Notes under the pieces: generated by a model | What the model was told of the DNA's origin: nothing | Databases searched by the model: none | The model's input: only the letters and a program-made list of their open reading frames with translations | Translations under genes and position numbers: made by a program | Shown: positions 38,007 through 54,585 of the stretch, one piece after another | Numbering within the stretch: position 1 is the first letter of the stretch | How the letters are laid out: each line of letters starts with the position of its first letter | Assembly: GCF_000473365.1 (NCBI RefSeq) | Contig: NZ_KI421517.1 | Span: 372,001-436,000, forward strand | Origin: Adhaeribacter aquaticus DSM 16391 | Lineage (GTDB): Bacteria; Bacteroidota; Bacteroidia; Cytophagales; Hymenobacteraceae | Length of the DNA stretch: 64,000 bases | Direction: 5' to 3'

Positions 38007-41000
38007 ATGACTACTGTACAAACTGAAGCGGCAATTACGCCAATTGAAGAAGAGATTAAGAAGCGCATTCTGGTATTAGATGGCGCCATGGGCACCATGA
38101 TTCAGCAGTATAAGCTGGAAGAGGCCGATTACCGGGGCGAGCGCTTTAAAGATTACCCATCCGATTTAAAAGGTAATAATGATTTACTTTCGCTTACGCA
38201 GCCCCATATTATAAAAGAAATTCACTGCCAATATTTTGAAGCGGGCGCTGATATTGCCGAAACCAACACCTTTAGTGCCACTACTATTGGTATGGCGGAT
38301 TATGGCATGGAAAGCCTGGCCTATGAACTCAATTACGAATCAGCCAGATTAGCCCGCGAAGCCGCTGATGAATTTACGGCCCGCGAACCGCATAAGCCAC
38401 GCTTTGTTGCTGGTGCTATTGGCCCAACCAACCGCACCGCCTCCATGTCGCCGGATGTAAATAACCCGGCTTACCGGGCTATAACTTATGATGATTTAGT
38501 TATTGCTTATACCGAGCAGATTGAAGGGCTGGTAGATGGTGGCGTGGATGCTTTATTGGTAGAAACCATTTTTGATACGCTTAACGCCAAAGCCGCTCTA
38601 TTTGCCATCGACCAGTACTCGCAGCGCACCGGCAAACGCTTACCTATAATGGTTTCGGGTACTATTACCGATGCCAGTGGCCGGACCTTATCGGGCCAAA
38701 CAGTAGAAGCCTTCTTATATTCCATTTCGCATTTGCCTTTATTAAGTGTAGGCTTGAATTGTGCATTGGGGGCCAAGCAGCTACGGCCTCATATTCAAAC
38801 CTTATCTAAATCAGCTAAGTTTTATGTGAGTGCCTACCCTAATGCTGGCTTGCCAAATGCTTTTGGCGAATACGATGAAAGCCCACAACAGATGGGCGAG
38901 CATATCCGCGATTTCCTGGAGCATAACTTTGTAAATATTGTAGGTGGTTGTTGCGGCACTACGCCGCCACACATAAAAGAAATTGCCCGTATTGCGGCCG
39001 AGTATTCCCCGCGTCAGAAACCACAATTACCCGCCGTACCTAAATACAGCGGCCTGGAGCCTTTAACCATTTTCGAAGGTTCTACTTTTATAAATATCGG
39101 CGAACGTACTAACGTAACCGGTTCTAAGAAATTCGCCCGTTTAATCCTGAACGATAATTACGACGAAGCCCTTTCCATTGCCCGCGAGCAGGTAGAAAAC
39201 GGTGCGCAGATTATTGATATCAACATGGACGAAGGCATGTTAGATTCAGAGAAAGCCATGACGCACTTCCTGAACCTGATTGCTTCGGAACCCGATATTT
39301 CGCGGGTACCCGTGATGATTGACTCTTCCAAATGGAGCGTGATTGAAGCCGGATTGAAATGTGTGCAGGGTAAATGTATTGTTAACTCCATCAGCTTAAA
39401 AGAAGGCGAAGAAAAATTTAAAGAAGTAGCCCGTAAAGTGCGCAGCTACGGTGCTGCGGTAGTGGTAATGGCTTTCGATGAACAAGGCCAGGCCGATAAC
39501 TACGAACGTCGGATCCAAATATGTGAACGTGCTTACAACATATTAACTAAAGAAGTAGGCTTTGCACCCGAAGACATCATTTTTGACCCGAATATTTTAA
39601 CGGTTGCTACCGGTATTGAGGAGCACAATAACTACGCTGTAGATTTTATTAATGCTACCCGCTGGATAAAAGAAAACCTACCGGGCGTAAAAGTAAGTGG
39701 TGGGGTAAGTAACATTTCTTTCTCTTTTAGAGGCAATGATACCGTGCGTGAGGCCATGCATACCGCTTTCCTGTACCACGCCATTAAAGCTGGTTTAGAT
39801 ATGGGTATTGTAAATGCTGGTCAGATTGAGGTATATGAAGAAATTCCCAAAGACCTGTTAGAGCGCGTAGAAGATGTACTGCTAAACCGCCGCCCGGATG
39901 CTACCGAAAGGATGCTGGAGTTTGCCGAACAGGTAAAAAATAAAGGTAAAGTAGTAGTAAAAGACGAAGCCTGGCGGAATGCGCCGGTTCAGGAACGCCT
40001 CACCCACTCTTTGGTAAAAGGCATTACCGACTACATAGATATTGATATTGAAGAAGCCCGTCAGCAAGCCGAACGCCCGCTACACGTAATTGAAGGTCCG
40101 TTAATGACCGGCATGAACGTAGTGGGTGATTTGTTTGGAGAAGGTAAAATGTTCTTACCACAGGTAGTAAAGAGCGCCCGCGTAATGAAAAAAGCGGTGG
40201 CTTATTTATTACCTTACATTGAAGCTGAAAAACAGCCCGGCGACGAAAGCAGAAATGCGGGCAAAGTGTTATTAGCCACTGTTAAAGGCGATGTACACGA
40301 TATCGGAAAAAATATTGTGGGCGTAGTACTAGCCTGCAACAACTACGAAATTGTAGACCTGGGTGTAATGGTGCCCACCGAAAAGATCCTGCAAACGGCA
40401 TTAGAAATTGGCGCGGATGTTATTGGCCTAAGTGGTTTAATTACTCCATCGCTGGATGAAATGGTGCACGTAGCCAAAGAAATGGAACGTCTTAAATTTA
40501 ATGTGCCATTATTAATTGGCGGTGCTACTACGTCTAAAGCCCATACAGCCGTAAAAATAGATCAGAACTACAGCGGCCCGGTCGTGCACGTTCTGGATGC
40601 GTCGCGCAGTGTGCCGGTGGTAGGTAGCCTACTACAGCCCGAGCAAAAAGCTGAATACGCTAAGAAAATTAAAGCCGAATATGAAATTTTGCGCGAGAGC
40701 TATGCCAACCGCAAAAAAGACCGCAATTATTTAACAATAGAAGCTGCCCGCGAAAACATGTTCAAGATAGACTGGACGCCGGAATTGGTTTACACACCAA
40801 AATATATCGGCACCAAAGTTTTTGAAGAATACCCGCTAAGCGAAATTGTTAACTACATAGACTGGACCCCATTTTTCCAGGCTTGGGAGTTGCACGGGAA
40901 ATACCCTAAAATTTTAACCGACGAAGTTGTTGGAGCCGAAGCCACGCGCTTAATGAACGATGCGCAGGCTATGCTGAAGAAAATAGTGAAAGAGAAATGG

Positions 41001-41708
41001 CTGAAAGCCCGGGCGGTAGTTGGCTTGTATCCGGCTAATACGGTTAATTCCGATGATATTGAAGTGTACAACAAAGAGCGCACTGAAATATTGGCTACTT
41101 TCCGGAATTTACGCCAGCAAGGTCAAAAAGGCAATGGTGTTCCAAATATTTCATTAGCTGATTTTGTAGCCCCCAAAGAAAGCGGTATACAAGATTATAT
41201 CGGCGGCTTTGCCGTAACCGCCGGCATTGGCATCGACGAGATTGTGCAGAAGTTTGAAGCTGAACACGACGACTACAGCAGCATTATGGTGAAAGCCCTG
41301 GCCGACCGTTTGGCTGAAGCATTTGCTGAATTGTTGCACGAACGCGTGCGTCGGGAATTCTGGGGCTACGCACCGGAAGAACAATTTTCTAATGACCAAT
41401 TAATCAAAGAAGATTACCAGGGCATTCGCCCGGCACCAGGCTACCCAGCCTGCCCGGATCATACCGAAAAAACAACTTTATTCCAGCTGCTGGATGTGGA
41501 GAAGAATACTGGTATTACCTTAACCGAAAGCATGGCCATGTTCCCAACCGCCGCAGTTTCGGGGATGTACTTTGCGAACAAGCATGCCCGCTATTTTGGC
41601 TTAGGTAAGATAAACAAAGACCAGGTAAAAAGCTATGCCCAACGAAAAAACATGACCATAACCGAAGTGGAACGCTGGCTGGCGCCAAACCTGGGATACG
41701 ATAATTAA
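38007..41708 (+). CDS. metH: Cobalamin-dependent methionine synthase
   Basis: The 1233-residue protein carries all four MetH modules. The homocysteine domain (1-330) has GAMGTMIQQ and the zinc ligands GGCCGTT (Cys315/316). The methyl-THF domain (355-615) has [13 protein letters not shown]. The cobalamin domain has DVHDIGKNI, with the cobalt-ligating His at 764. The C-terminal AdoMet activation domain (900-1233) has [12 protein letters not shown]. It makes methionine from homocysteine and 5-methyl-THF and needs vitamin B12. A SAM-I riboswitch precedes it and metF follows after 111 bp. GC content is slightly higher than neighbouring genes, without other signs of transfer. Confidence 0.98.
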
Positions 41709-41819
41709 TGTATGAATGAGTGATTGAATAAAGGAGTAGCTTGCAAAATAAACTCTGTTCCTACTCGCTCCTTCAAAATTTACGCATTCAAAATTTAAAA
41801 ACGCCCTCATTTTATTTAA

Positions 41820-42773
41820 ATGAAAGTTACTGAACATATAAGAAACGCGAAGAGCACCTTATTTTCTTTTGAGATATTACCACCCGTTAAAGGTACCAGC
41901 ATCCAATCTATTTATGATGGCATAGACCCTTTGATGGAATTCAACCCTCCCTTTATAAATGTTACCTATCATCGGGAAGAATATGTATTTAAAGAGCGGG
42001 AAAACGGATTACTAGAAAAGATTTCGATCCGGAAGCGGCCTGGTACAGTAGGTATTTGTGCTGCTTTAATGAATAAATATAAAGTAGATGCGGTGCCCCA
42101 TATTATTTGTGGTGGTTTCAGCAAGGAAGAAACCGAAAATGCCCTAATTGATCTAAACTTTTTGGGGATTGATAATTTATTGGTGTTACGCGGTGATTCC
42201 ATAAAAACGGAATCTACGTTCCGGCCTCATCCGGACGGCCATGCTTATGCCTGCGATTTATTAGAGCACGTAGTTAACCTAAACCATGGCAAATACTTGG
42301 ATGAAGATATTGCCAATCCGCTACCTACTAATTTTTGTCCGGGAGTAGCCGGTTACCCCGAAAAACATGCCGAAGCACCTAACATGGCTACCGATTTAAA
42401 ATATTTGAAGAAAAAGGTTGACATGGGAGCCGAGTACATAATTACCCAAATGTTTTTCGATAACCAAAAGTATTATGACTTTGTAAACGCTTGCAGAGAA
42501 GCCGGCATTAATGTACCAATCATTCCAGGTATTAAGCCACTTACCACTAAAAACCAGTTGAAACTATTACCAAACTTGTTTCACATTGATTTTCCGGATG
42601 ATCTGGTAAATGCCATTGAAGACGCAGAAACGCCGCAAGGCGTAAGACAGGTAGGTATAGAATGGGCTATTCAGCAATCTAAAGACTTGATGAAATTTGG
42701 TGTGCCCTGCCTTCACTTTTATACCATGAGTAAATCGGATGCCGTAGTAAAAATAGCCAAAGAGGTCTTTTAA
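41820..42773 (+). CDS. metF: Methylenetetrahydrofolate reductase
   Basis: The 317-residue TIM-barrel flavoprotein has FSFEILPPVKGTS (catalytic Glu), NVTYHREE, IDNLLVLRGDS and EYIITQMFFDNQ, all typical of MetF. It reduces 5,10-methylene-THF to the 5-methyl-THF used by MetH. The gap of 111 bp to metH holds no terminator, so both may respond to the riboswitch upstream. A strong terminator follows. Confidence 0.96.
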   Translation: MKVTEHIRNAKSTLFSFEILPPVKGTSIQSIYDGIDPLMEFNPPFINVTYHREEYVFKERENGLLEKISIRKRPGTVGICAALMNKYKVDAVPHIICGGFSKEETENALIDLNFLGIDNLLVLRGDSIKTESTFRPHPDGHAYACDLLEHVVNLNHGKYLDEDIANPLPTNFCPGVAGYPEKHAEAPNMATDLKYLKKKVDMGAEYIITQMFFDNQKYYDFVNACREAGINVPIIPGIKPLTTKNQLKLLPNLFHIDFPDDLVNAIEDAETPQGVRQVGIEWAIQQSKDLMKFGVPCLHFYTMSKSDAVVKIAKEVF

Positions 42774-43275: not shown

Positions 43276-44037
43276 ATGAATCGGGTAAATATTCTGCTAG
43301 GGTTAATTTTAACAGGCTCCACTTGTTTCGCCAAAACTAACGATAACGTTAATACTACTTCTCAGTTAGCATTAGTTTCTTACAGTGTTGATGCCAGCAA
43401 TATTCCTAACACCTTAACTCCTGCAACTGCTCCTTCAAATAAAAAAGAACTATTAAAAGAGTTAAATCTACGGTTAAAAAATAATCCGGCAGATGAGGAA
43501 ACCTATTTTGAGCGTGCTCAATTAAAACTAAAATTAAATGATGCTGCCGGGTCCATCAAAGATTTAAATCACCTAATTAAGCTTTCGCCTAACGTGGCTA
43601 ATTACTATCAGTTACGGGGAGAGGCCAAATTGGTGAAAGAAGATTTTCTGGGAGCGTTATTAGATTTTAACGTTTTGGTTAATACTAACCCTTCCGCCGA
43701 GGCTTATACTTTACGGGCTAAATCAAAAGCATTTTTAGGCGATGTACAAGGGGCCATAATAGACAATACCCAGGCTATTGAGTTAGATAAGGCCAATTAT
43801 ATAGCTTACTTTAACAGAGCTATGGAAAACTTTTATTTAGAAAAATATTCCTTAGCCGTTACGGATTTAAACCAGGTATTAACCTTAACCACCAGCAATG
43901 CCGAGGAAGTATACTATAACTTGGGCTTAGCTAAATATTTATTAGGTGATAAAAAAGGCGCTATGGTTGATTTAGTTAAAGCCGAAGAAATGGGTTACAC
44001 GGAAGCCTTAGCAACAATTAAAGCTTTAAAGAAATAA
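43276..44037 (+). CDS. Periplasmic TPR-repeat protein
   Basis: The 253-residue protein has a short signal peptide (cleaved near CFA) and then about five tetratricopeptide repeats from residue 65 on. Examples are EETYFERAQLKLKLNDAAG, NYYQLRGEAKLVKEDFLGA, AYTLRAKSKAFLGDVQGA and VYYNLGLAKYLLGDKKGA. TPR arrays bind other proteins; no partner is evident. It is monocistronic, with a terminator 88 bp after the stop. Confidence 0.85.
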   Translation: MNRVNILLGLILTGSTCFAKTNDNVNTTSQLALVSYSVDASNIPNTLTPATAPSNKKELLKELNLRLKNNPADEETYFERAQLKLKLNDAAGSIKDLNHLIKLSPNVANYYQLRGEAKLVKEDFLGALLDFNVLVNTNPSAEAYTLRAKSKAFLGDVQGAIIDNTQAIELDKANYIAYFNRAMENFYLEKYSLAVTDLNQVLTLTTSNAEEVYYNLGLAKYLLGDKKGAMVDLVKAEEMGYTEALATIKALKK

Positions 44038-44124
44038 TCATCGGGTTGTTTCCTGCTGTTATAGAGAGACATTAGCAGGTAATATAACCCCAGCGTCCAT
44101 ACATATTAATAGTTCAACATAATT

Positions 44125-44161
44125 AAAAGGCAGATAAGGAGTATTCTTTATCTGCCTTTTT
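44125..44161 (+). terminator. Terminator of the TPR gene
   Basis: AAAGGCAGATAA / TTATCTGCCTTT hairpin followed by T5, between the TPR and LEA-2-like genes. Confidence 0.85.
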
Positions 44162-44312
44162 ACTTCCTAATTCAGGGCTTTTCTTAAACCAACTTCTTCT
44201 AAAACAGTTATCTCTATTCCCGTATAAGGAGCTAATATTTTTATGGCCTGTAACATAACAGTTCATACTAAGGGAAGAAAAGAGAAAGAGGGTTAAATAA
44301 AGTAAATTAGAT

Positions 44313-44822
44313 ATGAAGAAGGTATTAGTGGCTTTAGGAATTCTATTAAGCCTTTTAGTTTTGGCGGGAGCATTGATATTTTATTTTATTCCGCGTGAGA
44401 AATTATTACCCTACGTTACGCCAGAGGTGAAGTATGTAACGGTAACAAATGCCATTATAGGTGATACTACGGCTACCATGGATGTACAATTAGAGGTTAC
44501 CTCCAAACTAATCCCTGTATTTGTAGATAGTATTGTTTATAATTTTCATGTGTATAATCAAAGCCTGGCGCAGGGAAATCAGAAATTTTCTCCTGATTCT
44601 AAAGTGGGCAAGGTTCAGACGTTAAGCATTCCTGTTAAAGTAGAACATACTAAAGCGCAGCCATTAGTAAAACAACAAATAGCTGACGGCAAAAAAATAC
44701 AGGCTAATGTAGAAGCCCATTGCCGATTACCTCTTGTGGGTATAAGGCGTTTTAATTTTAGCCGCGAAGTAGATATGGCTGTTCCGGTAATGCCAGGAAC
44801 CGATATTATAAGTGCGAAATAA
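44313..44822 (+). CDS. LEA-2 / WHy-domain-like membrane-anchored protein
   Basis: The 169-residue protein has one N-terminal TM anchor (6-27) and a single beta-rich domain. TATMDVQLEVTSKLIPVFVDSIVYNFHVYNQS and the following VQTLSIPVKV strand fit the water-stress/LEA type 2 pattern of lipid-associated periplasmic proteins. Function unknown. After its TAA stop the same frame stays open for 38 further codons ending at 44935 (see findings). A hairpin terminator follows at 44957. Confidence 0.6.
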   Translation: MKKVLVALGILLSLLVLAGALIFYFIPREKLLPYVTPEVKYVTVTNAIIGDTTATMDVQLEVTSKLIPVFVDSIVYNFHVYNQSLAQGNQKFSPDSKVGKVQTLSIPVKVEHTKAQPLVKQQIADGKKIQANVEAHCRLPLVGIRRFNFSREVDMAVPVMPGTDIISAK

Positions 44823-44956
44823 TCTTTTATAAAAAGACACAAATCAGCGCACATTTGCCTAAAAAAAACAATAATCAGAAATTTAAACAGCATAAGTGGT
44901 ATTGTAGATAAAGTAAAAGATGCTTTAGATTAATTAATCAACCTTGATAACTAGTA

Positions 44957-44988
44957 AAGCCCTGACTTTTTCTCATAGATCAGGGCTT
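44957..44988 (+). terminator. Terminator of the LEA-2-like gene
   Basis: AAGCCCTGA / TCAGGGCTT hairpin followed by a T5 run after two bases. Confidence 0.8.
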
Positions 44989-45111
44989 ACTTTTTATAGT
45001 AGCAACTTTACAAATTTGCTTTTCAATATTTAGGCTTAAATTTTACTTTTTGAACAGGCTTTTGTTAGTTGCAAGTATAATAACAGTAGGTTTATCTCTA
45101 AACTGCCCTTT

Positions 45112-45840
45112 ATGCTAGAAGAATTCCTGGAGCGAGCCATTCCCAGTAAAGAACTGATTTTTCTCACCGGTCCTTTCATTTTTATTTATGTGTTATTGGT
45201 AGCCATTTTAGTCAGTTATTTAAAAAAATACCGGCAGGTCCGCACGCCCTATACCCGTAAAATATTTCACTTTTTAATATTTTCCACGGCCGGTGTGTTC
45301 CAATTCCAGTTTGGTTTGCCGCTGGTAGTTTTATTTGGTTCTATTGTAAGTTTATTTGTGCTGGGAGCAGTATTAGCTGGTGAGGGATTTGTTTTTTATG
45401 AGGTAATGGCCAGAGAAACTGATCGACCGTATCGCACCTTATTCATTATAATTCCTTTAATTACTACAGCTCTGGGGGGTGTTCTGATAAATATGTTCTT
45501 TGGCCAGTTTGCCTTTATTGGCTACTTGGTAGGTGGTTGGGGCGATGCCGTAGGCGAACCAGTAGGCACCCGTTGGGGCAAACATCGCTATGCCGTGCCT
45601 TCGCTTATGGGTGTGCCAGCGCAGCGTAGCCTGGAAGGTTCTGCCGCGGTGGTGGTAGTAAGTTCATTAGTTGCTTTTGCTGGCTTCTTTTTTTTAGGCT
45701 ATCCGGTTCTCACGGCCTTAGGAACAGCTTTGTTATGCGGCATTGGAAGTGCCGCCGTAGAAGCGATCAGTAATCATGGGTTAGATAATTTAACTATTCA
45801 GGTAGCAGCTGCTGGTATTGCTTATGCTGTTTTAGCTTAA
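45112..45840 (+). CDS. Phytol/dolichol kinase-like membrane protein (CTP-dependent prenol kinase family)
   Basis: The 242-residue protein has about seven TM segments and the VTE5/SEC59/DGK1 family motifs: YTRKIFHFLIF near residue 46, GGWGDAVGEPVGTRWGKH near 143 and RSLEGSAAV near 177. Family members phosphorylate phytol, dolichol or diacylglycerol with CTP. The substrate here is unknown. It lies upstream of the NIPSNAP and ebo genes on the same strand; a link to prenyl handling by EboC is speculative. Confidence 0.8.
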   Translation: MLEEFLERAIPSKELIFLTGPFIFIYVLLVAILVSYLKKYRQVRTPYTRKIFHFLIFSTAGVFQFQFGLPLVVLFGSIVSLFVLGAVLAGEGFVFYEVMARETDRPYRTLFIIIPLITTALGGVLINMFFGQFAFIGYLVGGWGDAVGEPVGTRWGKHRYAVPSLMGVPAQRSLEGSAAVVVVSSLVAFAGFFFLGYPVLTALGTALLCGIGSAAVEAISNHGLDNLTIQVAAAGIAYAVLA

Positions 45841-45974
45841 TTTTTTTGTTTCAAGCTATTTCATTCCTGTAGTAATTTTTACTTATTTATTAATATTGTA
45901 ATACTAACGATTACCAACTTACAACTATAAATTGTAGATTAGTCGCTGATTTCTTTTAAACATACACACACCAC

Positions 45975-46760
45975 ATGAAAAACTTTTTCCGTGTACTAAC
46001 CCTTACCCTAACTTTAATTGGTTACATGACAATTTCTGACACCACAGCAGCTACACCACCTGCAAATGATGGCAAATTTTACGAAATGCGTATTTATTAT
46101 GCAGCGCCCGGTAAATTAGAAGATTTACAAAGCCGTTTCCGGAACCATACCACCAAAATTTTTGAAAAGCATGGTATGACCAATGTTGGTTACTGGGTGC
46201 CGGTTGAAAATACAGATAATAAATTAATCTACATTTTATCGTATCCGAGCAAAGAAGCCCGTGATGCCTCCTGGAAGGCTTTTGGTGCTGATCCGGAATG
46301 GCAGGCCGTTGCCAAAGCTTCGGAAGCGAATGGTAAACTGGTAACTAAAGTCGACAGCTGGTATTTGGAAACAACGGGTTATTCACCAGCCGTTAAAACC
46401 ACTGGAAACAAAAAAGACCAACGGATATTTGAATTGCGCACTTACACCGCTTCGCCGAATAATGCTGACAATTTACACGACCGCTTCCGGAACCATACCT
46501 TAAAAATGTTTAAGAAGCATGGCATGTCCAGCATTGGCTACTGGAAACCAACCGACAAAGACAGCGACAAAAACAATATGATTTTATATATCCTGGCTTA
46601 TAAAAACCGGGATGCTGCTACCGCTTCCTGGAAAGCGTTCCAGGGCGATTCAGCTTGGGCCGCTGCTAAGAAAGCTTCGGAAGAAAAAGGCGGAGGCTCC
46701 CTTACCAGCAAAGTAGAATCTGTTTACATGACACCAACTGATTACTCTCCTATTAAATAA
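45975..46760 (+). CDS. Secreted protein with two NIPSNAP domains
   Basis: The 261-residue protein has a signal peptide (cleaved near DTTAA) and two NIPSNAP domains, about 37-135 and 147-258. Both repeat FELRTYTA-type starts (FYEMRIYYAA; FELRTYTASP), RFRNHT, KHGM and the ASWKAF motif. NIPSNAP domains are ferredoxin-like dimeric folds with no settled function. The two domains are clearly duplicates of each other. Separated from eboA by a hairpin region. Confidence 0.88.
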   Translation: MKNFFRVLTLTLTLIGYMTISDTTAATPPANDGKFYEMRIYYAAPGKLEDLQSRFRNHTTKIFEKHGMTNVGYWVPVENTDNKLIYILSYPSKEARDASWKAFGADPEWQAVAKASEANGKLVTKVDSWYLETTGYSPAVKTTGNKKDQRIFELRTYTASPNNADNLHDRFRNHTLKMFKKHGMSSIGYWKPTDKDSDKNNMILYILAYKNRDAATASWKAFQGDSAWAAAKKASEEKGGGSLTSKVESVYMTPTDYSPIK

Positions 46761-46820
46761 GTAGTTGGTTTCTAGCTGGTAGTTAAACCAGAATCAGCAA
46801 TAAAGTTTAGATTATTATTT

Positions 46821-46856
46821 AAATATAGCTGCTTCCGAAAGAGGCAGCTATATTTG
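46821..46856 (+). promoter_or_regulatory. Inverted repeat overlapping the candidate eboA -7 box
   Basis: AAATATAGCTGC (46821-46832) and GCAGCTATATTT (46844-46855) form a perfect 12-bp inverted repeat with an 11-nt loop. TATATTTG (46849-46856), a perfect TAnnTTTG match, lies in the right arm, 62 bp before eboA. It may be a terminator of the NIPSNAP gene, an operator for ebo, or both. Confidence 0.45.
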
Positions 46857-46918
46857 TATTATAGCACCCATTATTTCAGTCTAGTACTGAGTTAACGTTT
46901 TATTGAGAACCTATTTTT

Positions 46919-47788
46919 ATGTCTGCTGAAGCGTATAAACAATTTTTGTCTGGTTTAGTACAAACCCAGCTTCCCCCCCAAGGGCAGAACTGGCTGGAGA
47001 AACAGTTAAATCAAATTAAATCAGAGAAAGAATTTTACCTCGCGTTTAGTATGGCTCCCCGGTTCACAGGCAAGAAACAACTAATACTTACCGAGGAGGA
47101 GCTTCAGCAGGCAACACAACTACGAGAAGGTTTTAATCCTAATAATTGGACTGTTGATCAGGTAGCCAGAACGCTATTGGTTCTCGCCATTCCACACCAG
47201 ACTCCGGAACAATTTATAGCCATCCTTAACAAAATATTTTCAACCGCCGACCTAGGGGAACTGACTGCTTTATATGCTGCCTTACCTTTATTGCCTTACC
47301 AAGAGCTCCACGTGAAACGGGCGGCAGAAGGTGTTCGCACCACCATGACGCAAGTGTTTGATGCGATTGCTTTAAATAACCCCTACCCGCACGATTATTT
47401 ACCAGAGGAAGCCTGGAATCAGATGGTTTTAAAATCAGTGTTTAATGTAAGACCGTTGTACCAGATTTACGGCTTAGATGCCCGTCGGAATGAAACCTTA
47501 GCGCGTATAGCTATAGATTATGCGCATGAGCGCTGGTCAGCCAACCGGACCCTTACGCCAGAACTATGGCGTTTAGTAGCACCCTTTATTAATGGAAATA
47601 ATCTTGCTGATGTACAACGCTTACTTAAAAGCTCTGAGCAAATCCAACTGCACGCAGCGGCTCTTGCCTTAACCGAAAGTAATTTACCGGAAGCTCAACA
47701 TATATTAGCTCAATACCCTGAGATAGTTAAGGGTATACAAGAAGGTAAAATCACCTGGAATTTAATTGGAAAACAATCTTATTCTTAA
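46919..47788 (+). CDS. eboA: EboA-domain protein
   Basis: The 289-residue soluble, helix-rich protein resembles EboA: a repeated LxxALxxxL alpha-solenoid-like pattern, FYLAFSMAPRFTGKK near residue 38 and a central FDAIALNNPYPHDYLPEEAWNQMVLKSVF block. EboA has no known enzymatic activity. It is the first gene of a cluster whose next genes match EboB, EboC and EboD in order, which makes the call firm. No signal peptide is present. Confidence 0.8.
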   Translation: MSAEAYKQFLSGLVQTQLPPQGQNWLEKQLNQIKSEKEFYLAFSMAPRFTGKKQLILTEEELQQATQLREGFNPNNWTVDQVARTLLVLAIPHQTPEQFIAILNKIFSTADLGELTALYAALPLLPYQELHVKRAAEGVRTTMTQVFDAIALNNPYPHDYLPEEAWNQMVLKSVFNVRPLYQIYGLDARRNETLARIAIDYAHERWSANRTLTPELWRLVAPFINGNNLADVQRLLKSSEQIQLHAAALALTESNLPEAQHILAQYPEIVKGIQEGKITWNLIGKQSYS

Positions 47789-47827
47789 TTTAGAAGTAAT
47801 AATCTTTAAAATTAACAAAGAAGAAAT

Positions 47828-48748
47828 ATGTTATTTATAGATCCACACGTACACATGACCTCTCGCACCACCGATGATTACGAAGCAATGCGTAAAGCCG
47901 GTGTGGTAGCCATGATTGAACCTGCCTTTTGGATGGGCCAACCCCGCACCGAGGCTGGCACTTTTAAAGATTATTACAGCCACTTAATTGGTTTTGAACG
48001 GTTCCGGGCCAGCCAGTTCGGCATTAAACATTATTGTACAATTGGCCTAAATTCCAAAGAAGCCAATAATGAGCCTCTGGCCGAAGAAGTAATGGAATTA
48101 TTACCCTTATTTGTCATGAAAGAAGGTGTGGTTGGGATAGGAGAAATTGGCTATGACGACCAAACTGCCGCTGAAGACAAATATTACCGTTTACAATTGG
48201 AATTAGCCAAAGAAGTAAACCTGCCGGTACAAATTCATACCCCGCACCGTGATAAAAAGACAGGCACCATCCGCAGCATGGAAGTTGCCCTGGAACACGG
48301 TTTGGACCCTGCCTTGGTAATTGTGGACCATAATAATGAAGAAACAGTAAAAGAAGTACTGGACAGAGGCTTCTGGGCAGCTTTTACCATATACCCGCAT
48401 ACTAAAATGGGTAATGAGCGCATGACAGAAATTGTGAGGCAGTATGGCCACGAGCGCATCATGATTAATAGTGCTGCCGACTGGGGCATTAGCGATCCTT
48501 TAGCGGTACCAAAAACAGCCCAGCTAATGTTAGAACGGGGTATCTCAGAGGAATCTGTGCACATGGTTACTTACCAAAATGCACTGGCGGCTTTCGGGCA
48601 AAGTGGGCAAATGCAGGAAAGCGACTGGCTGGAAGTTACCCCAATTGACCAGAGCCAGAAATTTTCCGGTAATTCTATTTTACGTGGCGGACAAACTCCC
48701 CGTGTTGATACCGGTGAAAACAAAAACGAATCCAATATTATCCGATAG
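47828..48748 (+). CDS. eboB: EboB, TatD-like metal-dependent hydrolase
   Basis: The 306-residue TIM-barrel hydrolase has the TatD-type metal ligands: DPHVHM (His7/His9), GIGEIGYDD (Glu), VQIHTPH (His), VDHNNEET (His) and the SAADWG Asp. Substrate unknown; TatD relatives are nucleases or amidohydrolases. It starts 39 bp after eboA and ends 9 bp before eboC. Confidence 0.85.
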   Translation: MLFIDPHVHMTSRTTDDYEAMRKAGVVAMIEPAFWMGQPRTEAGTFKDYYSHLIGFERFRASQFGIKHYCTIGLNSKEANNEPLAEEVMELLPLFVMKEGVVGIGEIGYDDQTAAEDKYYRLQLELAKEVNLPVQIHTPHRDKKTGTIRSMEVALEHGLDPALVIVDHNNEETVKEVLDRGFWAAFTIYPHTKMGNERMTEIVRQYGHERIMINSAADWGISDPLAVPKTAQLMLERGISEESVHMVTYQNALAAFGQSGQMQESDWLEVTPIDQSQKFSGNSILRGGQTPRVDTGENKNESNIIR

Positions 48749-48757
48749 TCCCGCTAC

Positions 48758-49669
48758 ATGAACCGAATATACGCGCACCTGGTGCTGATGCGTCCTGCCA
48801 ACATTATTACTGCTATCGCCGATATTATGCTGGGTTTTGCCGCATCGGGTTCCGTCATGATGCTGCTAGAAAGTAATAACATTCAAATTGGGAGTCCGCA
48901 GTTGCGTTTGCTCTTTTGGCTTATTTTAGCCACCATCGGATTATATGGTGGTGGTGTAGTTTTTAACGATGTATTTGACGCCGACCTGGACCGGGTAGAA
49001 CGGCCGGAGCGTCCAATTCCAAGTGGGGCTGCCTCGCGTACCAGCGCAACAGTACTTGGTGCTCTTTTATTAATTGGGGGTATTGGTGCCGCTTTCCAGG
49101 TATCTATGCTTAGTGGTGCCCTAGCAGTAATTACGGCTATTCTGGCGCTAGTATATAATGCCTTAGCTAAGTCCCATCCTATTCTGGGCCCGCTCAATAT
49201 GGGTATGTGCCGGGGCTTTAATTTATTACTGGGTTTAAGTGCCGTACCATCGGCCGTTCAGGTTTATTGGTATATGGCACTTATCCCTATTGTTTACATT
49301 GCAGCCATTACAGTTATTAGTCGCGGCGAAGTACACGGGGGGGATAAAAGAATTTTAAAAGGTGCTTTTTGCTTGTACTTAGTAGTGATTGCCGGAATAT
49401 TCATCCTGGACCGATTGCAGCAATATAATCTATTATATGCTTTACCTTTTTTAGCTTTATTTATTTACTTTATTTTTCCGGCATTACTACAAGCCATTAA
49501 AACCCTGGAGCCGCTTCATATTCGCTTGGCAGTAAAAGCAGGTGTAATAGCCCTTATTGTAATGGATGCCACCATTGCTGCCGGATTTGCCGGCTGGCAG
49601 TATGGCTTAATTGTATTGGCCTTATTTCCAATTTCCCGCTTTCTGGCCAAGCAATTTGCAGTTACTTAA
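48758..49669 (+). CDS. eboC: EboC, UbiA-family prenyltransferase
   Basis: The 303-residue polytopic protein has the first Asp-rich UbiA motif NDVFDADLDRVERPERP near residue 70 and a second conserved segment with SRGEVHGGDKR near residue 188. It should transfer a prenyl group onto an unknown acceptor in the membrane. It is clearly distinct from the UbiA protein at 20049. Spacing of 9 bp to eboB implies coupling. Confidence 0.85.
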   Translation: MNRIYAHLVLMRPANIITAIADIMLGFAASGSVMMLLESNNIQIGSPQLRLLFWLILATIGLYGGGVVFNDVFDADLDRVERPERPIPSGAASRTSATVLGALLLIGGIGAAFQVSMLSGALAVITAILALVYNALAKSHPILGPLNMGMCRGFNLLLGLSAVPSAVQVYWYMALIPIVYIAAITVISRGEVHGGDKRILKGAFCLYLVVIAGIFILDRLQQYNLLYALPFLALFIYFIFPALLQAIKTLEPLHIRLAVKAGVIALIVMDATIAAGFAGWQYGLIVLALFPISRFLAKQFAVT

Positions 49670-49808
49670 ATAATGGCGCAACAGAAATTATTTATTTTAA
49701 TTTTGTCTAAAAAATGAGCATGAATAACGCTTATTTTATACTTAGTTTTGTACTATAACTGGTATGGCTTTTGAGTTATACGTTATAGTTTTAGCGCTTT
49801 AAAATTAA
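49670..49808. other. eboC-eboD intergenic gap with candidate promoter
   Basis: 139 bp, large for this cluster. TAGTTTTG at 49743-49750 matches TAnnTTTG and could start a separate eboD transcript. No terminator-like hairpin is present, so readthrough from eboC is also possible. Confidence 0.4.
49743..49750 (+). promoter_or_regulatory. Candidate internal -7 element before eboD
   Basis: TAGTTTTG, perfect TAnnTTTG match, 58 bp before the eboD ATG. No convincing -33 box lies 19-21 bp upstream. Confidence 0.3.
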
Positions 49809-50972
49809 ATGCAGATAGCTCCTATTTACCAACAGTTTCAGATAACCTTTAAATATACCGTTCATTTTACCGAAGGCTTATTTAATTTATCTAACCCCCT
49901 ACTTCGCAATGTAATATTAGAGGACCGTACTGAGGAGGCCCCTAAAGTACTTTTTGTTATCGATCATCACGTAGCAGAAGCTGTACCGGCCTTGGTTTCG
50001 GACATTCAGGCTTACTCTCAGCAAAATGCTGATGCTTTCCAATTAGTAACAGAACCAGTTATTATTCCGGGAGGCGAACAATGCAAGAATGATCCAACTT
50101 ATGTGCAACAGGTTTTAGATATTATTAATGATCATGGCATAGATCGCCACTCTTATATAATAGTTATTGGGGGTGGTGCTATTTTAGATATGGTTGGTTA
50201 TGCCGCTTCTATTGCGCACCGGGGCATCCGTCATATTCGCATACCCACTACCGTATTGGCCCAAGACGATTCAGGAGTTGGGGTAAAAAACAGCATCAAT
50301 GCTTTTGGTAAAAAAAATTTCCTGGGCTGTTTTACACCGCCCAATGCCGTTATTAACGATTTTAACTTTTTACTAACCCTCTCCGATCGCGAATGGCGGG
50401 CAGGTATTGCCGAAGCCATAAAAGTAGCGTTAATTAAAGATGCTTCTTTCTTCCAGTTTATTCAGGAAAATGCTGCAAAGTTGGCGCAGCGCGATATGGC
50501 CGCTATGCAATATCTGATTCGGAGAAGTGCCGAAATGCACGTCCAACACATTGGCAGCGGCGACCCCTTCGAGAAAGGTTCGTCCCGACCGTTGGATTTC
50601 GGTCATTGGTCGGCGCATAAAATTGAACCATTGAGTAATTACCGCATTCGGCACGGCGAAGCAGTTGCCATGGGTATTGCATTGGATTCAGTTTATTCTC
50701 ATTTAATAGGCTGGCTAACCGAAGCAGAGGTAAACCAAATTATTTCGGTTATCAAAGCATTAGGTTTTGAGCTGTATGCAACAGAAATGACGTCTCACTT
50801 AGATGATGCCTCTCACCCCGACAGCTTATTACACGGCTTACAGGAATTCCGGGAGCATTTAGGTGGCCAGTTAACCATTATGCTGTTAGAAAAAATAGGG
50901 TACGGAGTAGAAGTGCATGAGATAGATGATAAATTGGTGATAGAAGCTATAAAAAAATTGCAAACCTATTAA
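49809..50972 (+). CDS. eboD: EboD, 3-dehydroquinate-synthase-like protein
   Basis: The 387-residue protein has the DHQ-synthase fold. GGGAILDMVGYAA binds NAD, and PTTVLAQDDSGVGVKNSINAFGKKNFLG is the substrate region. The metal ligands are kept: Glu in AEAIKVAL, His in DFGHWSAHKIE and His in RHGEAVAMG. It should act as a sugar-phosphate cyclase. That it is EboD rather than AroB rests on its cluster neighbours and on the WSAHKIE and ITMLLEKIGYGVEVHEID features. Housekeeping AroB was not found in this window. Confidence 0.82.
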   Translation: MQIAPIYQQFQITFKYTVHFTEGLFNLSNPLLRNVILEDRTEEAPKVLFVIDHHVAEAVPALVSDIQAYSQQNADAFQLVTEPVIIPGGEQCKNDPTYVQQVLDIINDHGIDRHSYIIVIGGGAILDMVGYAASIAHRGIRHIRIPTTVLAQDDSGVGVKNSINAFGKKNFLGCFTPPNAVINDFNFLLTLSDREWRAGIAEAIKVALIKDASFFQFIQENAAKLAQRDMAAMQYLIRRSAEMHVQHIGSGDPFEKGSSRPLDFGHWSAHKIEPLSNYRIRHGEAVAMGIALDSVYSHLIGWLTEAEVNQIISVIKALGFELYATEMTSHLDDASHPDSLLHGLQEFREHLGGQLTIMLLEKIGYGVEVHEIDDKLVIEAIKKLQTY

Positions 50973-51037
50973 AAAGTTTTATTAACCAGGTTTTCTTCTG
51001 CCTCCGCTCCAAAAAGAAATAGTCCTTTAACTTATTT

Positions 51038-51082
51038 AAAAGCCTTTAGCTAAAGATAATACTTATAGTTAAAGGCTTTTTT
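51038..51082 (+). terminator. Terminator of the ebo cluster
   Basis: AAAGCCTTTAGCTA / TAGTTAAAGGCTTT hairpin with T run, 66 bp past the eboD stop. Confidence 0.88.
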
Positions 51083-51235
51083 ATTGATTTACTTCCGAAA
51101 AACATTTACCTTTTTGCAGCTGCATCCCATTCTTTTTTCTCCGAATTTCAAGAATTCAGGAATTAGAACAACCTCTTTGTTGTATGTTAGTATGTAAAAC
51201 AAAATAAATTTTCAAGTTTTAGCGTACATTTTTCT

Positions 51236-51802
51236 ATGCATACCATAGAGCCTTATTATAACTGGATAGACCAATACAGTGCTTCAGAAGACCCTAAATC
51301 ACCGCTCTATGGAGCGGAGAATAGCTTAATGGAGTTTACAAACACTATCTATGGGTATTATATTCATCCCCAGTGGGACGATATAGAATCTGAAACCCTG
51401 TTCCTGAAAATACTATTCGTAGATTACGATATGGGTTTTGGTATTATTGAATTCATTGGCGAATGGAATGATACCTTACATAACGATATTATGCAACTGA
51501 AAAGAAACATAATAGACCCGATGCTGCAGGAAGGTATCCACCGTTATATTCTTATCGGGGAGAACGTGTTTAATTTTCATGGTTCAGACGATTCTTATTA
51601 TGAAGAATGGTTCGAAGACGTAGAGGATGGCTGGATTACGGCCATTTGCTTCCAGGATTTTGTACTGGACGAGATGAAAAAATTTAACCTGGATTATTAT
51701 ATAAATTTTGGTGGCACGTTAGAAGATATTAATTGGCGCACCTTAGAACCGCGTGTTTTGTATAACAGAATAAGCAATTTGATTCAAAAAAGAATTGGAT
51801 AA
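51236..51802 (+). CDS. Unknown acidic cytoplasmic protein
   Basis: The 188-residue protein is acidic and rich in Trp, Tyr and Asp/Glu, without signal peptide or TM segment. Features are YYNWIDQYSASEDPKSPLYG at the start and YYEEWFEDVEDGWITAICFQ near residue 122. It is not recognised. It follows the ebo terminator and ends at a bidirectional terminator, so it is its own transcript. It is not EboE or EboF, which are larger enzymes. Confidence 0.7.
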   Translation: MHTIEPYYNWIDQYSASEDPKSPLYGAENSLMEFTNTIYGYYIHPQWDDIESETLFLKILFVDYDMGFGIIEFIGEWNDTLHNDIMQLKRNIIDPMLQEGIHRYILIGENVFNFHGSDDSYYEEWFEDVEDGWITAICFQDFVLDEMKKFNLDYYINFGGTLEDINWRTLEPRVLYNRISNLIQKRIG

Positions 51803-51855
51803 AAAATTAAAGGAATGGGTTAACCCTATTTGCTAGATCCAAATAAATTTTAAAT

Positions 51856-51888
51856 AAAAAAAGGCATCTATTAACAGATGCCTTTTTT
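51856..51888. terminator. Bidirectional terminator
   Basis: AAAAAAAGGCATCT / AGATGCCTTTTTT hairpin with a 6-nt loop between convergent genes. Confidence 0.9.
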
Positions 51889-51904
51889 ATTTTTAAACCA
51901 TAAA

Positions 51905-52105
51905 TTATTTTTTTGTTGAATCAGGCGCTATCAAGGCTAAGGAATCAGGCACCATTGAAGCCGTTTCCGCCATATCGGTAGCTGTGGATCCTTCCAAAAC
52001 ATCTTCCGATGGCATGGAAATATTTACCCCATCCGCATTACGCGGCTGACAAGCATAAAAGCTAATACTATTAAAGATGATCAGTAGAGCACCAAGCTTT
52101 TTCAT
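51905..52105 (-). CDS. Small lipoprotein of unknown function
   Basis: The 66-residue protein has a lipoprotein signal with lipobox FYAC (Cys19) and a Ser/Asp/Thr-rich acidic tail ending PDSTKK. It is probably a small envelope lipoprotein. It lies downstream of der on the same strand with a 46 bp gap. No family recognised; it is kept because of the clear signal and terminator placement. Confidence 0.55.
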   Translation of the reverse strand: MKKLGALLIIFNSISFYACQPRNADGVNISMPSEDVLEGSTATDMAETASMVPDSLALIAPDSTKK

Positions 52106-52151
52106 TTTTATGTTATAAAAGAATAAATATTTTTAAATTATTCGCTACAAA

Positions 52152-53465
52152 TTACTTCTTTCTGAAAACAATATTAATTGGCACGCCTTCAAATCCAAAA
52201 TGTTGTCGAATCTTGTTTTCCAAATACCGGGTGTAAGACTCCCGAATATATTGCGGTAAATTACAGAAAAAAGCAAATGTTGGGTTGTGCGTTGGCAATT
52301 GGGTAACATATTTTATTTTAATAAACTTCCCTTTAATTGCCGGCGGCGGATAGGTCTCTATCTCTTTCAGGATAACATCATTTAATTTAGATGTAGGTAT
52401 CTTTTGCGTTTTATTTTTATAAACCTGTACCGCTGCTTCAATAGCTTTATGTACACGTTGTTTCGTTAAAACCGAAGTAAAGATAATTGGCATATACGTC
52501 ATTGGAGCCAACTTCTCCCGAATCTGGTCTTCCAGTTGCTTCATGGTGTTAGTTTCCTTATTTTCGATAAGGTCCCATTTATTTACCAGTATGATAGTAC
52601 CTTTCCGGTTCTTATCTGCTAAACCTATAATGTTTACGTCCTGTGCTTCTAAACCACGGGTAGCATCAATCATAACAATACACACATCTGATTCTTCCAT
52701 AGCCCGGATAGAACGCAACACAGAATAAAATTCAATATCCTCGTGCACTTTGGATTTACGGCGCAAACCAGCAGTATCAATAATAATTAAATCATTGCCA
52801 AAGGCATTATACCGGGAGTGAATCGCATCCCTGGTAGTACCCGCAATATCGGTTACTATATTCCGCTCTTCCCCTAATAATAAGTTTACAAAAGAAGATT
52901 TACCTACGTTCGGACGCCCTAATACTGCAATTCTGGGAACACCTTCATCCGGATCTTCTAAATCTTCGGTTTCAAAATGTTTTACTACTTCATCTAATAA
53001 ATCACCGGTACCAGAACCATTGGCGGCAGAAATTGGAAAAATTTCTTCTCCCAGGCCCATCGCATAAAACTCACCGGTAAGGTTAGCCCGCAGGTTTGTA
53101 TCAGCTTTGTTTGCTACAATATAAATAGGTTTATCGGTGCGGCGTAATACGTCAGCAAACTCTTCGTCCAAGCCTGTTAAACCCGCATCCACATCTACCA
53201 TAAATAAAATAACGGTAGCCTCTTTTATTGCCAGTTCTACCTGCTTCCGGATTTCACCTTCAAAAATATCTTCCGAGCCATGTACATATCCACCAGTATC
53301 AATAACGGTATAAAATTTACCGCACCACTCGCCATAACCATAATGCCGGTCGCGGGTTACGCCGCTTACGTTATCCATGATGGCTTTACGTTCGCCAACC
53401 AGGCGGTTAAAAAGCGTGGATTTCCCGACGTTTGGCCGGCCTACAATAGCTACAATATTTGCCAT
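52152..53465 (-). CDS. der: Ribosome-assembly GTPase Der (EngA)
   Basis: The 437-residue protein has two tandem GTPase domains: GRPNVGKSTLFNRLVGERKA (residues 8-27) and GRPNVGKSSFVNLLLGEERN (about 178-197), each followed by DTGGY or DTAGL and NKAD or NKWD. A KH-like C-terminal domain (about 352-437) completes it. Der acts in 50S maturation. It lies 229 bp after era on the same strand. Confidence 0.97.
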   Translation of the reverse strand: MANIVAIVGRPNVGKSTLFNRLVGERKAIMDNVSGVTRDRHYGYGEWCGKFYTVIDTGGYVHGSEDIFEGEIRKQVELAIKEATVILFMVDVDAGLTGLDEEFADVLRRTDKPIYIVANKADTNLRANLTGEFYAMGLGEEIFPISAANGSGTGDLLDEVVKHFETEDLEDPDEGVPRIAVLGRPNVGKSSFVNLLLGEERNIVTDIAGTTRDAIHSRYNAFGNDLIIIDTAGLRRKSKVHEDIEFYSVLRSIRAMEESDVCIVMIDATRGLEAQDVNIIGLADKNRKGTIILVNKWDLIENKETNTMKQLEDQIREKLAPMTYMPIIFTSVLTKQRVHKAIEAAVQVYKNKTQKIPTSKLNDVILKEIETYPPPAIKGKFIKIKYVTQLPTHNPTFAFFCNLPQYIRESYTRYLENKIRQHFGFEGVPINIVFRKK

Positions 53466-53694
53466 TTAATTTTAAGTTGTTGTTTCAGCCCGGTTTTGTT
53501 GCATCCGGGTATCCGAAACAGTTTTAGAAATTTATTTAACTGTTGCCTCAGCTCTTTCTTTCGTCAGAACTTCCGGCTATCCTGTATACTTCTCTGCAGG
53601 GAAAGAAGTCTGAATACTAAATTACAAGCTTAATAGCCTGAATATATTTATGAACAAAGAATAACTTGTTTAAATTCTATTTAAGAAAAATAAA

Positions 53695-54585
53695 CTATTC
53701 CTGGTTATACCCAAAGCGGTTTAACGCTTTTTGGTTGGTGCGCCAATTTTCATTTACGCGCACATATAATTCAATGTGTACCTGCTTTCCGAAAAATTCT
53801 TCTAAATCCTTCCGGGCCATTGTACCCACCTTTTTCAGCATTTCGCCTTTGTGCCCAATAATAATGCCTTTTTGGCTTTTCCGCTCCACATTAATATCAG
53901 CCCGCATCCGGATGATTTTCTCGTCTTCCTTAAACTCTTCTACTACTACCTCGCAACTGTAGGGTACTTCTTTTTTATAAAGAAGGAATATTTTTTCGCG
54001 AATAATTTCGGCCGCAAAAAAGCGCTCCGGCTTGTCCGTCAGCTCATCTTTATCATAAAAAGCGGGGTGTTCTGGCAGGTATTGCAATATTAATTCAAAT
54101 ATCTTATCCGTTCCTTTTTTCTCTAAGGCAGAAATAGGCAGAATTTCTTTAGCCGGAACTTTATCTTTCCAATATTCAATTTTCAGCAATACATCATCCT
54201 GGGTGGCCTGATCTATTTTATTTATCAGCAGCAAAATGGGTACGCTTGTTTTTTGCAACCGGGCTACAATCTCTTCTTCGTCGTGCTTTTCGTAAATATC
54301 GGTTACAAATAAAATAACATCAGCATCCTCCAACGAAGCATGCACAAATCGCATCATGGATTGGTGCAGTTCATATTTTGGCTGAATGATACCTGGCGTA
54401 TCAGAATAAACAATCTGGAAATCATCGCCATTCAGAATACCCATTATCCGGTGCCGGGTGGTCTGAGCTTTGGAAGTAATAATAGAAAGGCGCTCACCTA
54501 CCATCACGTTCATGAGCGTAGATTTACCTACATTAGGTTTCCCAATGATACTGACAAAACCGGCTTTGTGGGGAGTTTGGCTCAT
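53695..54585 (-). CDS. era: GTPase Era
   Basis: The 296-residue protein has one GTPase domain with GKPNVGKSTLMNVMVGERLS, DTPGI and NKID, and a C-terminal KH domain with IIGHKGEMLKKVGTMARKDLEEFFGKQV. Era binds the 3' end of 16S rRNA and assists 30S maturation. It diverges from hemH and precedes der. Confidence 0.97.
   Translation of the reverse strand: MSQTPHKAGFVSIIGKPNVGKSTLMNVMVGERLSIITSKAQTTRHRIMGILNGDDFQIVYSDTPGIIQPKYELHQSMMRFVHASLEDADVILFVTDIYEKHDEEEIVARLQKTSVPILLLINKIDQATQDDVLLKIEYWKDKVPAKEILPISALEKKGTDKIFELILQYLPEHPAFYDKDELTDKPERFFAAEIIREKIFLLYKKEVPYSCEVVVEEFKEDEKIIRMRADINVERKSQKGIIIGHKGEMLKKVGTMARKDLEEFFGKQVHIELYVRVNENWRTNQKALNRFGYNQE

Follow-up and report, generated by a model that had tools for sequence, protein, structure and literature searches.

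In Nostoc punctiforme, according to passages of Klicki et al. (PMC6282210), the ebo genes are needed for moving the scytonemin monomer to the periplasm, and each of five single ebo deletions traps the monomer in the cytoplasm. The same passages describe the EDB locus of Pseudomonas fluorescens NZI7 as also carrying a full ebo set, and insertions in its homologues of eboA, eboD or eboE give rise to an edible phenotype. For Adhaeribacter aquaticus, passages of Yurchenko et al. 2016 (PMC5133447) report an eboE–eboF pair detached from the remaining ebo genes; their description of ebo includes split cases and does not require one operon. Here we analyze a 64,000-nucleotide stretch of A. aquaticus DSM 16391 (the window, positions 372001–436000 of contig NZ_KI421517.1, hereafter C1), which carries the cluster eboA-eboB-eboC-eboD at window positions 46919–50972. 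C1 spans 4.83 Mb of a 5.17-Mb genome in four contigs.

The host shares the EboA, EboB, EboC, EboE and EboF families with N. punctiforme (PMC6282210), a member of a different host group, and by analogy with that system the genes may have a role in metabolite export to the periplasm here. The same six families make up the contiguous eboABCDEF clusters of Hymenobacter, Pontibacter, Rufibacter and Algoriphagus; unlike these, the host set lies at two loci, with eboE and eboF away from the other ebo genes, as published for the species. Whereas the passages of PMC5133447 report this for one species, we find the break in all eight sampled genomes of the genus, and other breaks across the order.

A complete ebo set at two loci

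The four ebo open reading frames (ORFs) of the window are all intact and all on the forward strand. Their coordinates and profile matches (Table 1) agree with a first-pass annotation, which had named them from the sequence letters. The EboA subfamily model NF035937 gives the window protein 288 bits, under its cut-off of 320, although the EboA domain model NF035938 places the 46919 protein in the family. Since the NF035937 cut-off is also missed by all eight other Bacteroidota EboA proteins tested, some of them from full ABCDEF operons, the miss probably reflects the calibration of the model. EboB is 76–93% identical to its counterparts in 18 relatives with split or contiguous loci, and 92–93% identical to those of two genus members.

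The first-pass annotation had named the 49809 protein EboD, a DHQ-synthase-like cyclase. Against the aroB equivalog model TIGR01357 it scores 242 bits, under the cut-off of 305, while another AroB in the host genome passes the same model with 315 bits and adjoins an aroA-like ORF (named by eye). The model that identifies the window eboD, NF004852, carries the NCBIfam label '3-dehydroquinate synthase', but an EboD from a complete Aureibacter ABCDEF operon is recognized by it as well, and 'dehydroquinate synthase' on the window gene is a label. Judged by these profiles, the 49809 protein is EboD, not housekeeping AroB. Both outcomes that could have overturned the first-pass naming, an EboA placed outside its family and an EboD placed in AroB, were checked and failed to appear.

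No eboE or eboF follows eboD, the next genes being an ORF of 188 amino acids (aa) and then der. The description of the cluster as lacking eboE and eboF therefore holds locally. It does not hold for the genome, in which a search suggested by the first-pass annotation found the two genes side by side. The EboE model NF035939 has a single match (513 bits, cut-off 250) at C1:768457-769629. The genome encodes three PF01663 proteins, one of which lies directly after this match (C1:769738-770835, 206 bits). This eboF candidate is 63–83% identical to eboF of the relatives mapped, and the EboF call combines PF01663, position and identity. With eboD ending at C1:422972, the pair lies approximately 345 kb away on the same contig. 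All six ebo ORFs are intact, at two loci rather than in a single operon, and the earlier suggestion that eboE and eboF lie elsewhere was borne out. An assembly artefact was considered as the cause of the split and rejected: both halves are on one 4.83-Mb contig, and five of the eight genus genomes are split within one contig. In content the ebo set of the host is ordinary; its layout, with the break between eboD and eboE, is unusual though not without precedent.

Within the family sample of 200 genomes, ebo is present in 53, with EboC above cut-off in 52 and EboE in 53; in the remaining one of the 53 EboC is in two pieces, as is its EboE. All eight sampled genomes of the window's genus have eboE detached from eboC–eboD. 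In five of them EboC and EboE are 9 kb to 4.3 Mb apart on one contig, and in three they are on different contigs. In all eight eboD follows eboC, and in seven eboF follows eboE, the contig of the eighth (G034) ending at that point. In three other genera EboC and EboE are 1.25–1.94 kb apart in 45 of 45 ebo-bearing genomes. Thirteen of those loci were mapped, and 12 of them are ABCDEF in a row; the thirteenth (G002, L023, genus g3) is CDEF with no A or B within its 20-kb stretch, another type of split. The eboC–eboD gap is 139 bp in the window (49670–49808) and 134–145 bp in six genus relatives, which exceeds the gap in all but one of the 13 loci mapped in other genera; an internal promoter is possible. 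In G014 (L017), helicase, amidohydrolase and pfkB-kinase genes separate eboEF from eboABCD; the two halves are on opposite strands with 9 kb between them, possibly as a result of a later rearrangement.

Across the order sample of 341 genomes, at a presence threshold of E 1e-60, EboC was detected in 136 and EboE in 140. Every one of the 136 EboC-positive genomes keeps EboE, so that ABCD alone is no sufficient core. Four genomes have EboE only at this threshold. In one of them the EboC match reaches a full score but is interrupted, in two others there are EboC-like pieces, and in the last, whose assembly is 72% complete, the EboC matches are all weak. EboC and EboE lie within 6 kb of each other in 89 of the 136 genomes, farther apart on one contig in 17 (from five families) and on different contigs in 30, to which assembly breaks may contribute.

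Ten split genomes of the order were mapped more closely. The layouts were A..BC|DEF in G433, ABC|DEF in G267 and ABC|EF, with D not seen, in G245; in G395, DEF is away from C, with A and B outside the mapped stretch. G240 has a solitary eboC and keeps eboE and eboF together except for one gene between them, and in G203, G264, G202, G250 and G218 EboC and EboE each stand without another detected ebo gene nearby. The break after eboD is seen in every sampled genome of the genus, with other break points in other lineages, and since these points differ by lineage ABCD is not a natural unit. Contiguity is common in a further set of 80 named loci, taken as the top matches to EboB once close relatives of the window had been excluded: 67 map as ABCDEF and 13 differ, some through contig ends or ORF calling. 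Three named loci with full flanks have A and B only. On plasmids, EboE matches were found in 48 records, four of them predicted to be conjugative, and Ketogulonicigenium pKvSKV1 (L142) carries the other ebo genes besides its EboE match.

TMEM220 beside the ebo genes

The host genome encodes a TMEM220-family protein (74.6 bits against PF15071, cut-off 27) near eboF (Table 1). When the 477 ORFs lying inside ebo or within 3 kb of it in the 80 named loci were clustered without supervision, TMEM220 was the top flanking cluster. It covered 13 of 48 taxon labels and 23 loci, on both sides of the ebo cluster and with a median gap of 38 bp; the runner-up covered six taxon labels and the third three. 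A hidden Markov model (HMM) search picked up the family in 23 of the same 80 loci, with 24 copies in all, and 23 of these copies lie no more than 225 bp from eboA or eboF. Upstream of eboA, 14 copies are immediately adjacent on the same strand and three are divergent, while after eboF three are on the same strand, three are convergent, and a further convergent copy, the second in its locus, lies at a distance of 613 bp. All 16 ebo-flanking proteins scanned match PF15071. In the locus L081, from a Segetibacter metagenome-assembled genome, the ebo cluster is flanked by a TMEM220 copy to its left and another to its right.

TMEM220 also co-occurs with ebo. It was found in 145 genomes of the order sample, namely in 128 of 140 EboE-positive genomes versus 17 of 201 others; counted per genus, the figures are 42/46 versus 9/75. 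In a class sample, all nine EboE-positive genomes (three of them shared with the order sample) have TMEM220, versus 10 of 174 others. Only 10 of the 128 genomes with both have TMEM220 within 5 kb of EboE or EboC, as judged partly by eye. Since TMEM220 is mostly unlinked to ebo, physical linkage does not account for the co-occurrence. Genus g5, a Hymenobacter-like genus in which ebo is patchy (9 of 116 genomes), has TMEM220 in five of nine ebo-positive genomes, where it is linked, versus none of 107 ebo-negative ones. The corresponding counts in g3 are 29/34 versus 9/16; TMEM220 is present in seven of eight genomes of g1 and in three of eight of g4, all eight of the latter being ebo-free. The g5 genome G196 has eboC, eboE and TMEM220 all broken in two (C1:696995-702318 of that assembly), reflecting either joint decay or sequencing errors.

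The predicted structure of TMEM220 has four helices with a mean predicted local distance difference test (pLDDT) score of 86.9, and a fold search gave no significant solved match (best E 1.6). Most of its invariant residues (N21, D22, D24, W28, Y32; E87, R90, E91) fall around the first loop and the start of the last helix, and they would lie on one face of the membrane if all four helices span it. Passages of a study using clustered regularly interspaced short palindromic repeats (CRISPR; PMC6979480) describe human TMEM220 as Golgi-resident and as affecting glycoprotein secretion. The bacterial proteins flanking ebo match the same family, and the parallel with the human protein is only suggestive. 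In the literature collection searched, TMEM220 was not found together with 'ebo operon' or 'scytonemin', and a tblastn search of plasmids with the host protein returned nothing at E 0.01. We propose that TMEM220 is an unrecognized ebo partner in Bacteroidota, with a role that we would place at the membrane.

Proposed pathway and alternative explanations

The EboA model, built from the window protein and 46 relatives, is all-helical and solenoid- or repeat-like, with a mean pLDDT of 96.9. No significant solved fold was found for it (best E 0.6), and its sequence profile returned nothing from the PDB up to E 1. This predicted helical-repeat architecture is in line with the scaffold idea found in passages of Klicki et al. 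(PMC6282210). The only solved chain matching EboB at E 1e-6 is 3guw, and the nearest solved chain to EboC is a lipid prenyltransferase, the digeranylgeranylglyceryl phosphate synthase 6m31. In EboD, residues E202, H266 and H282 are invariant in the alignment and coincide with what we take to be the metal ligands of dehydroquinate synthase (DHQS). The EboD motif LDFGH and its ValA equivalent VDFGH contrast with LN[FL]GH in the aligned DHQS chains, and EboD has KNSIN where those chains and ValA have KT[GA][IV]N. EboD also keeps the second histidine, which ValA lacks at the aligned place. By profile, EboD is no closer to ValA (4p53) than to DHQS.

Judging from these sequences, we consider it likely that the host possesses a complete ebo pathway, half of it encoded by eboABCD in the window and half by eboEF 345 kb off, in which the six proteins would act as one pathway and with which TMEM220 would work at the membrane. 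We read six proteins made from two or more transcription units as one pathway because relatives keep EboC and EboE despite rearrangement. The catalytic steps, the ebo product and the role of TMEM220 are what we infer, in a scheme modelled on the proposals of Yurchenko et al. and of Klicki et al. EboD would cyclize a heptulose phosphate, giving a cyclitol-like core that EboE and EboB would tailor; EboF would remove or rearrange a phosphate, and EboC would prenylate the core in the membrane, with EboA as a helical repeat protein holding the enzymes together. The membrane product would then aid small-molecule export to the periplasm, and in Bacteroidota TMEM220 would act with the pathway at the membrane. 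With more reserve, we lean towards TMEM220 being a seventh ebo component in Bacteroidota, a membrane-side partner that could be a late membrane enzyme or a translocator of the prenylated product, and towards ebo being a dispersed, co-retained set that is not bound to an operon.

Several observations weigh against this reading. EboG replaces EboA in some phyla, according to passages of PMC5133447, which weakens a fixed scaffold role for EboA. In a farnesylation assay with aromatic acceptors, reported in passages of PMC9235831, EboC homologues favoured quinoline acids, a preference that does not point to a cyclitol. The HMM search did not find TMEM220 in 57 of the 80 named loci, nor beside ebo in five plasmid loci, of which four belong to phyla other than Bacteroidota. 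TMEM220 is missing from 12 of the 140 EboE-positive genomes of the order and present in 17 EboE-free ones, and genus g6 gives no association (1 of 2 ebo-positive versus 8 of 14 ebo-negative genomes). The co-occurrence counts and their Fisher values ignore phylogeny and come with no control family. In one genus member, G003, eboD is in two overlapping ORFs (L015:11001-12175), through a frameshift or a sequencing error; a long ORF farther upstream in this stretch is likewise divided, and that points to a sequencing error. Finally, concatenated trees of 24 taxa, for which eboD of G014 was absent and that of G003 partial in the input, conflict on g5. In the ABCD tree, g5 clusters with the host genome, G019 and G024 to the exclusion of the remaining four genus genomes (support 100). 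In the EF tree these three genus genomes are separated from g5 and everything else (83), and g5 joins the remaining four at 59. The two halves may thus lack a common history, and a single splitting event is not established.

The first-pass annotation had offered a four-gene core as one explanation, and a reduced, self-sufficient eboABCD pathway in this lineage would accord with the absence of eboE and eboF after eboD and with the conserved two-gene block upstream of eboA that is particular to the genus. It is highly improbable in view of the eboE and eboF genes present in the same genome, the retention of EboE in all eight sampled genus genomes, the absence, at E 1e-60, of any EboC-positive genome without EboE among the 341 of the order, and break points such as ABC|DEF in G267. 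We hold it just as improbable that the cluster is a decaying remnant of a pathway being lost. The fragmented genes of G196 and the two-part eboD of G003 would fit such decay, or sequencing error, but the six host ORFs are intact, EboB is very similar to that of two genus members, and EboC and EboE are both retained throughout the sampled genus. A second shikimate DHQS at 49809, in place of EboD, could account for the NCBIfam label of NF004852 and for the invariant residues aligned with the presumed DHQS metal ligands. This is very unlikely when the same model names an EboD inside a complete Aureibacter operon, when the AroB adjoining aroA already passes TIGR01357, and when the LDFGH and KNSIN motifs depart from those of DHQS.

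The split could also mark a specialization, in which eboABCD together with the NIPSNAP and 242-aa genes makes a product other than that of the six-gene pathway in this genus. The upstream pair stays with ABCD in seven of seven genomes with enough flank, though farther genes differ in G014, G019 and G024; this conservation within the genus may, however, be plain descent, and in the ebo loci mapped for other genera neither of the two was detected, which leaves specialization an unlikely though not negligible explanation. There is an appreciable, if minor, chance that TMEM220 is a chance or lifestyle-correlated neighbour outside the ebo system. Its mostly unlinked position, its presence in ebo-free genomes of g3, g4 and g6, and the plasmid loci where it was not found beside ebo all speak for such a neighbour. 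Its position right next to the ebo genes, on one flank or the other, under 13 taxon labels (six for the next flanking family) and its presence in every EboE-positive genome of the class sample argue instead for the partnership proposed above.

Flanking genes and implications

Table 1. Features of the two ebo loci and their flanks. Coordinates without a prefix are window positions; those with C1 are contig positions.
Feature	Coordinates	Strand	Length	Identification
242-aa ORF	45112..45840	+	242 aa	'VTE5-like kinase' of the first-pass annotation; genus-level eboA neighbour
NIPSNAP-family protein	45975..46760	+		PF07978, 117 bits; signal peptide by eye
eboA	46919..47788	+	289 aa	NF035938 EboA domain, 170 bits (cut-off 50)
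eboB	47828..48748	+	306 aa	TatD-like metallo-hydrolase; PF01026, 71 bits
eboC	48758..49669	+	303 aa	UbiA-type membrane prenyltransferase; NF035940, 397 bits (cut-off 250)
eboD	49809..50972	+	387 aa	sugar phosphate cyclase superfamily; NF004852/PRK06203, 591 bits (cut-off 333)
Acidic protein	51236..51802	+	188 aa	flanking gene; DUF4948 match below cut-off only
Terminator-like hairpin and T run	51857..51888	+		3' of the 188-aa ORF, before der
der	52152-53465	-		name from the first-pass annotation, no profile behind it
eboE ORF	C1:768433-769656			TIM-barrel EboE; profile match inside the ORF
eboF ORF	C1:769729-771117			phosphodiesterase-like; PF01663, next to eboE
TMEM220 (PF15071)	L007:14329-14679 = C1:773328-773678	-		2.2 kb downstream of eboF, opposite strand

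The 242-aa and NIPSNAP genes lie directly upstream of eboA in all seven genus genomes with enough flank, the window included, and the eighth stretch is too short to show this flank. In G014, G019 and G024 the genes beyond the pair differ and the pair itself is kept. Neither gene was detected in the 13 loci of other family genera or in the 80 named loci. The proposal that these upstream genes are accessory has limited support, from synteny within the genus and not beyond it, and they may be genus-level ebo accessories. For the NIPSNAP protein, both the family assignment and the shared strand were confirmed. For the 242-aa ORF, the label 'VTE5-like kinase' comes from motifs and was not borne out by profiles: the window protein and six homologues gave no relevant Pfam match up to E 10, and the window protein gave no match to a cytidine triphosphate-dependent polyprenol kinase in NCBIfam. 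A long ORF and a second ORF precede this block at window positions 38007–42773; their names, one of them metF-like, are our assumption. The same pair lies upstream in G003, G009 and G029 and was not seen in G014, G019 and G024.

On the other side, the terminator, acidic protein and der said to follow eboD are all downstream, with the terminator-like site placed 3' of the acidic ORF, not 5' of it. Such sites are not enriched across 44000–54000 (five observed against a shuffle mean of 9.3). No homologue of the 188-aa acidic protein was detected in the other ebo loci mapped, and it is not part of the ebo set.

Around the distant pair, a gene for an AraC-type regulator (L007:8267-9217) stands directly upstream of eboE in the host genome. 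This position is taken by a DEAD-box helicase gene in G003 and G014, by an unscanned ORF of the same size in G009 and G029, and by an esterase-like gene in G024 and G034, so the regulator is not conserved there. Between the eboF side and TMEM220 are two ORFs (L007:12916-14015), the second with the integrase core PF13683, which by their layout are presumably IS3-like. This ORF pair was not seen in four relatives mapped with both flanks (L009–L012).

Altogether, the earlier interpretation of the window is partly supported. The four-gene cluster is not a minimal pathway, and work on lipids or exometabolites in this group therefore has to cover six genes at two loci. Scattered genes combined with the joint retention of EboC and EboE are a stronger sign of joint work than operon structure alone, and what deserves further attention is this co-retention across the order together with TMEM220. 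TMEM220 is an orphan family of small membrane proteins shared with animals, and the published six-gene ebo scheme has no such membrane-side partner. If TMEM220 is indeed a partner, the 'metabolite traffic' system, in which the published accounts, in the passages drawn on here, assign no protein to the transport step, would gain a component at the membrane, and the human orphan protein, which reportedly affects secretion, could be approached through bacteria.

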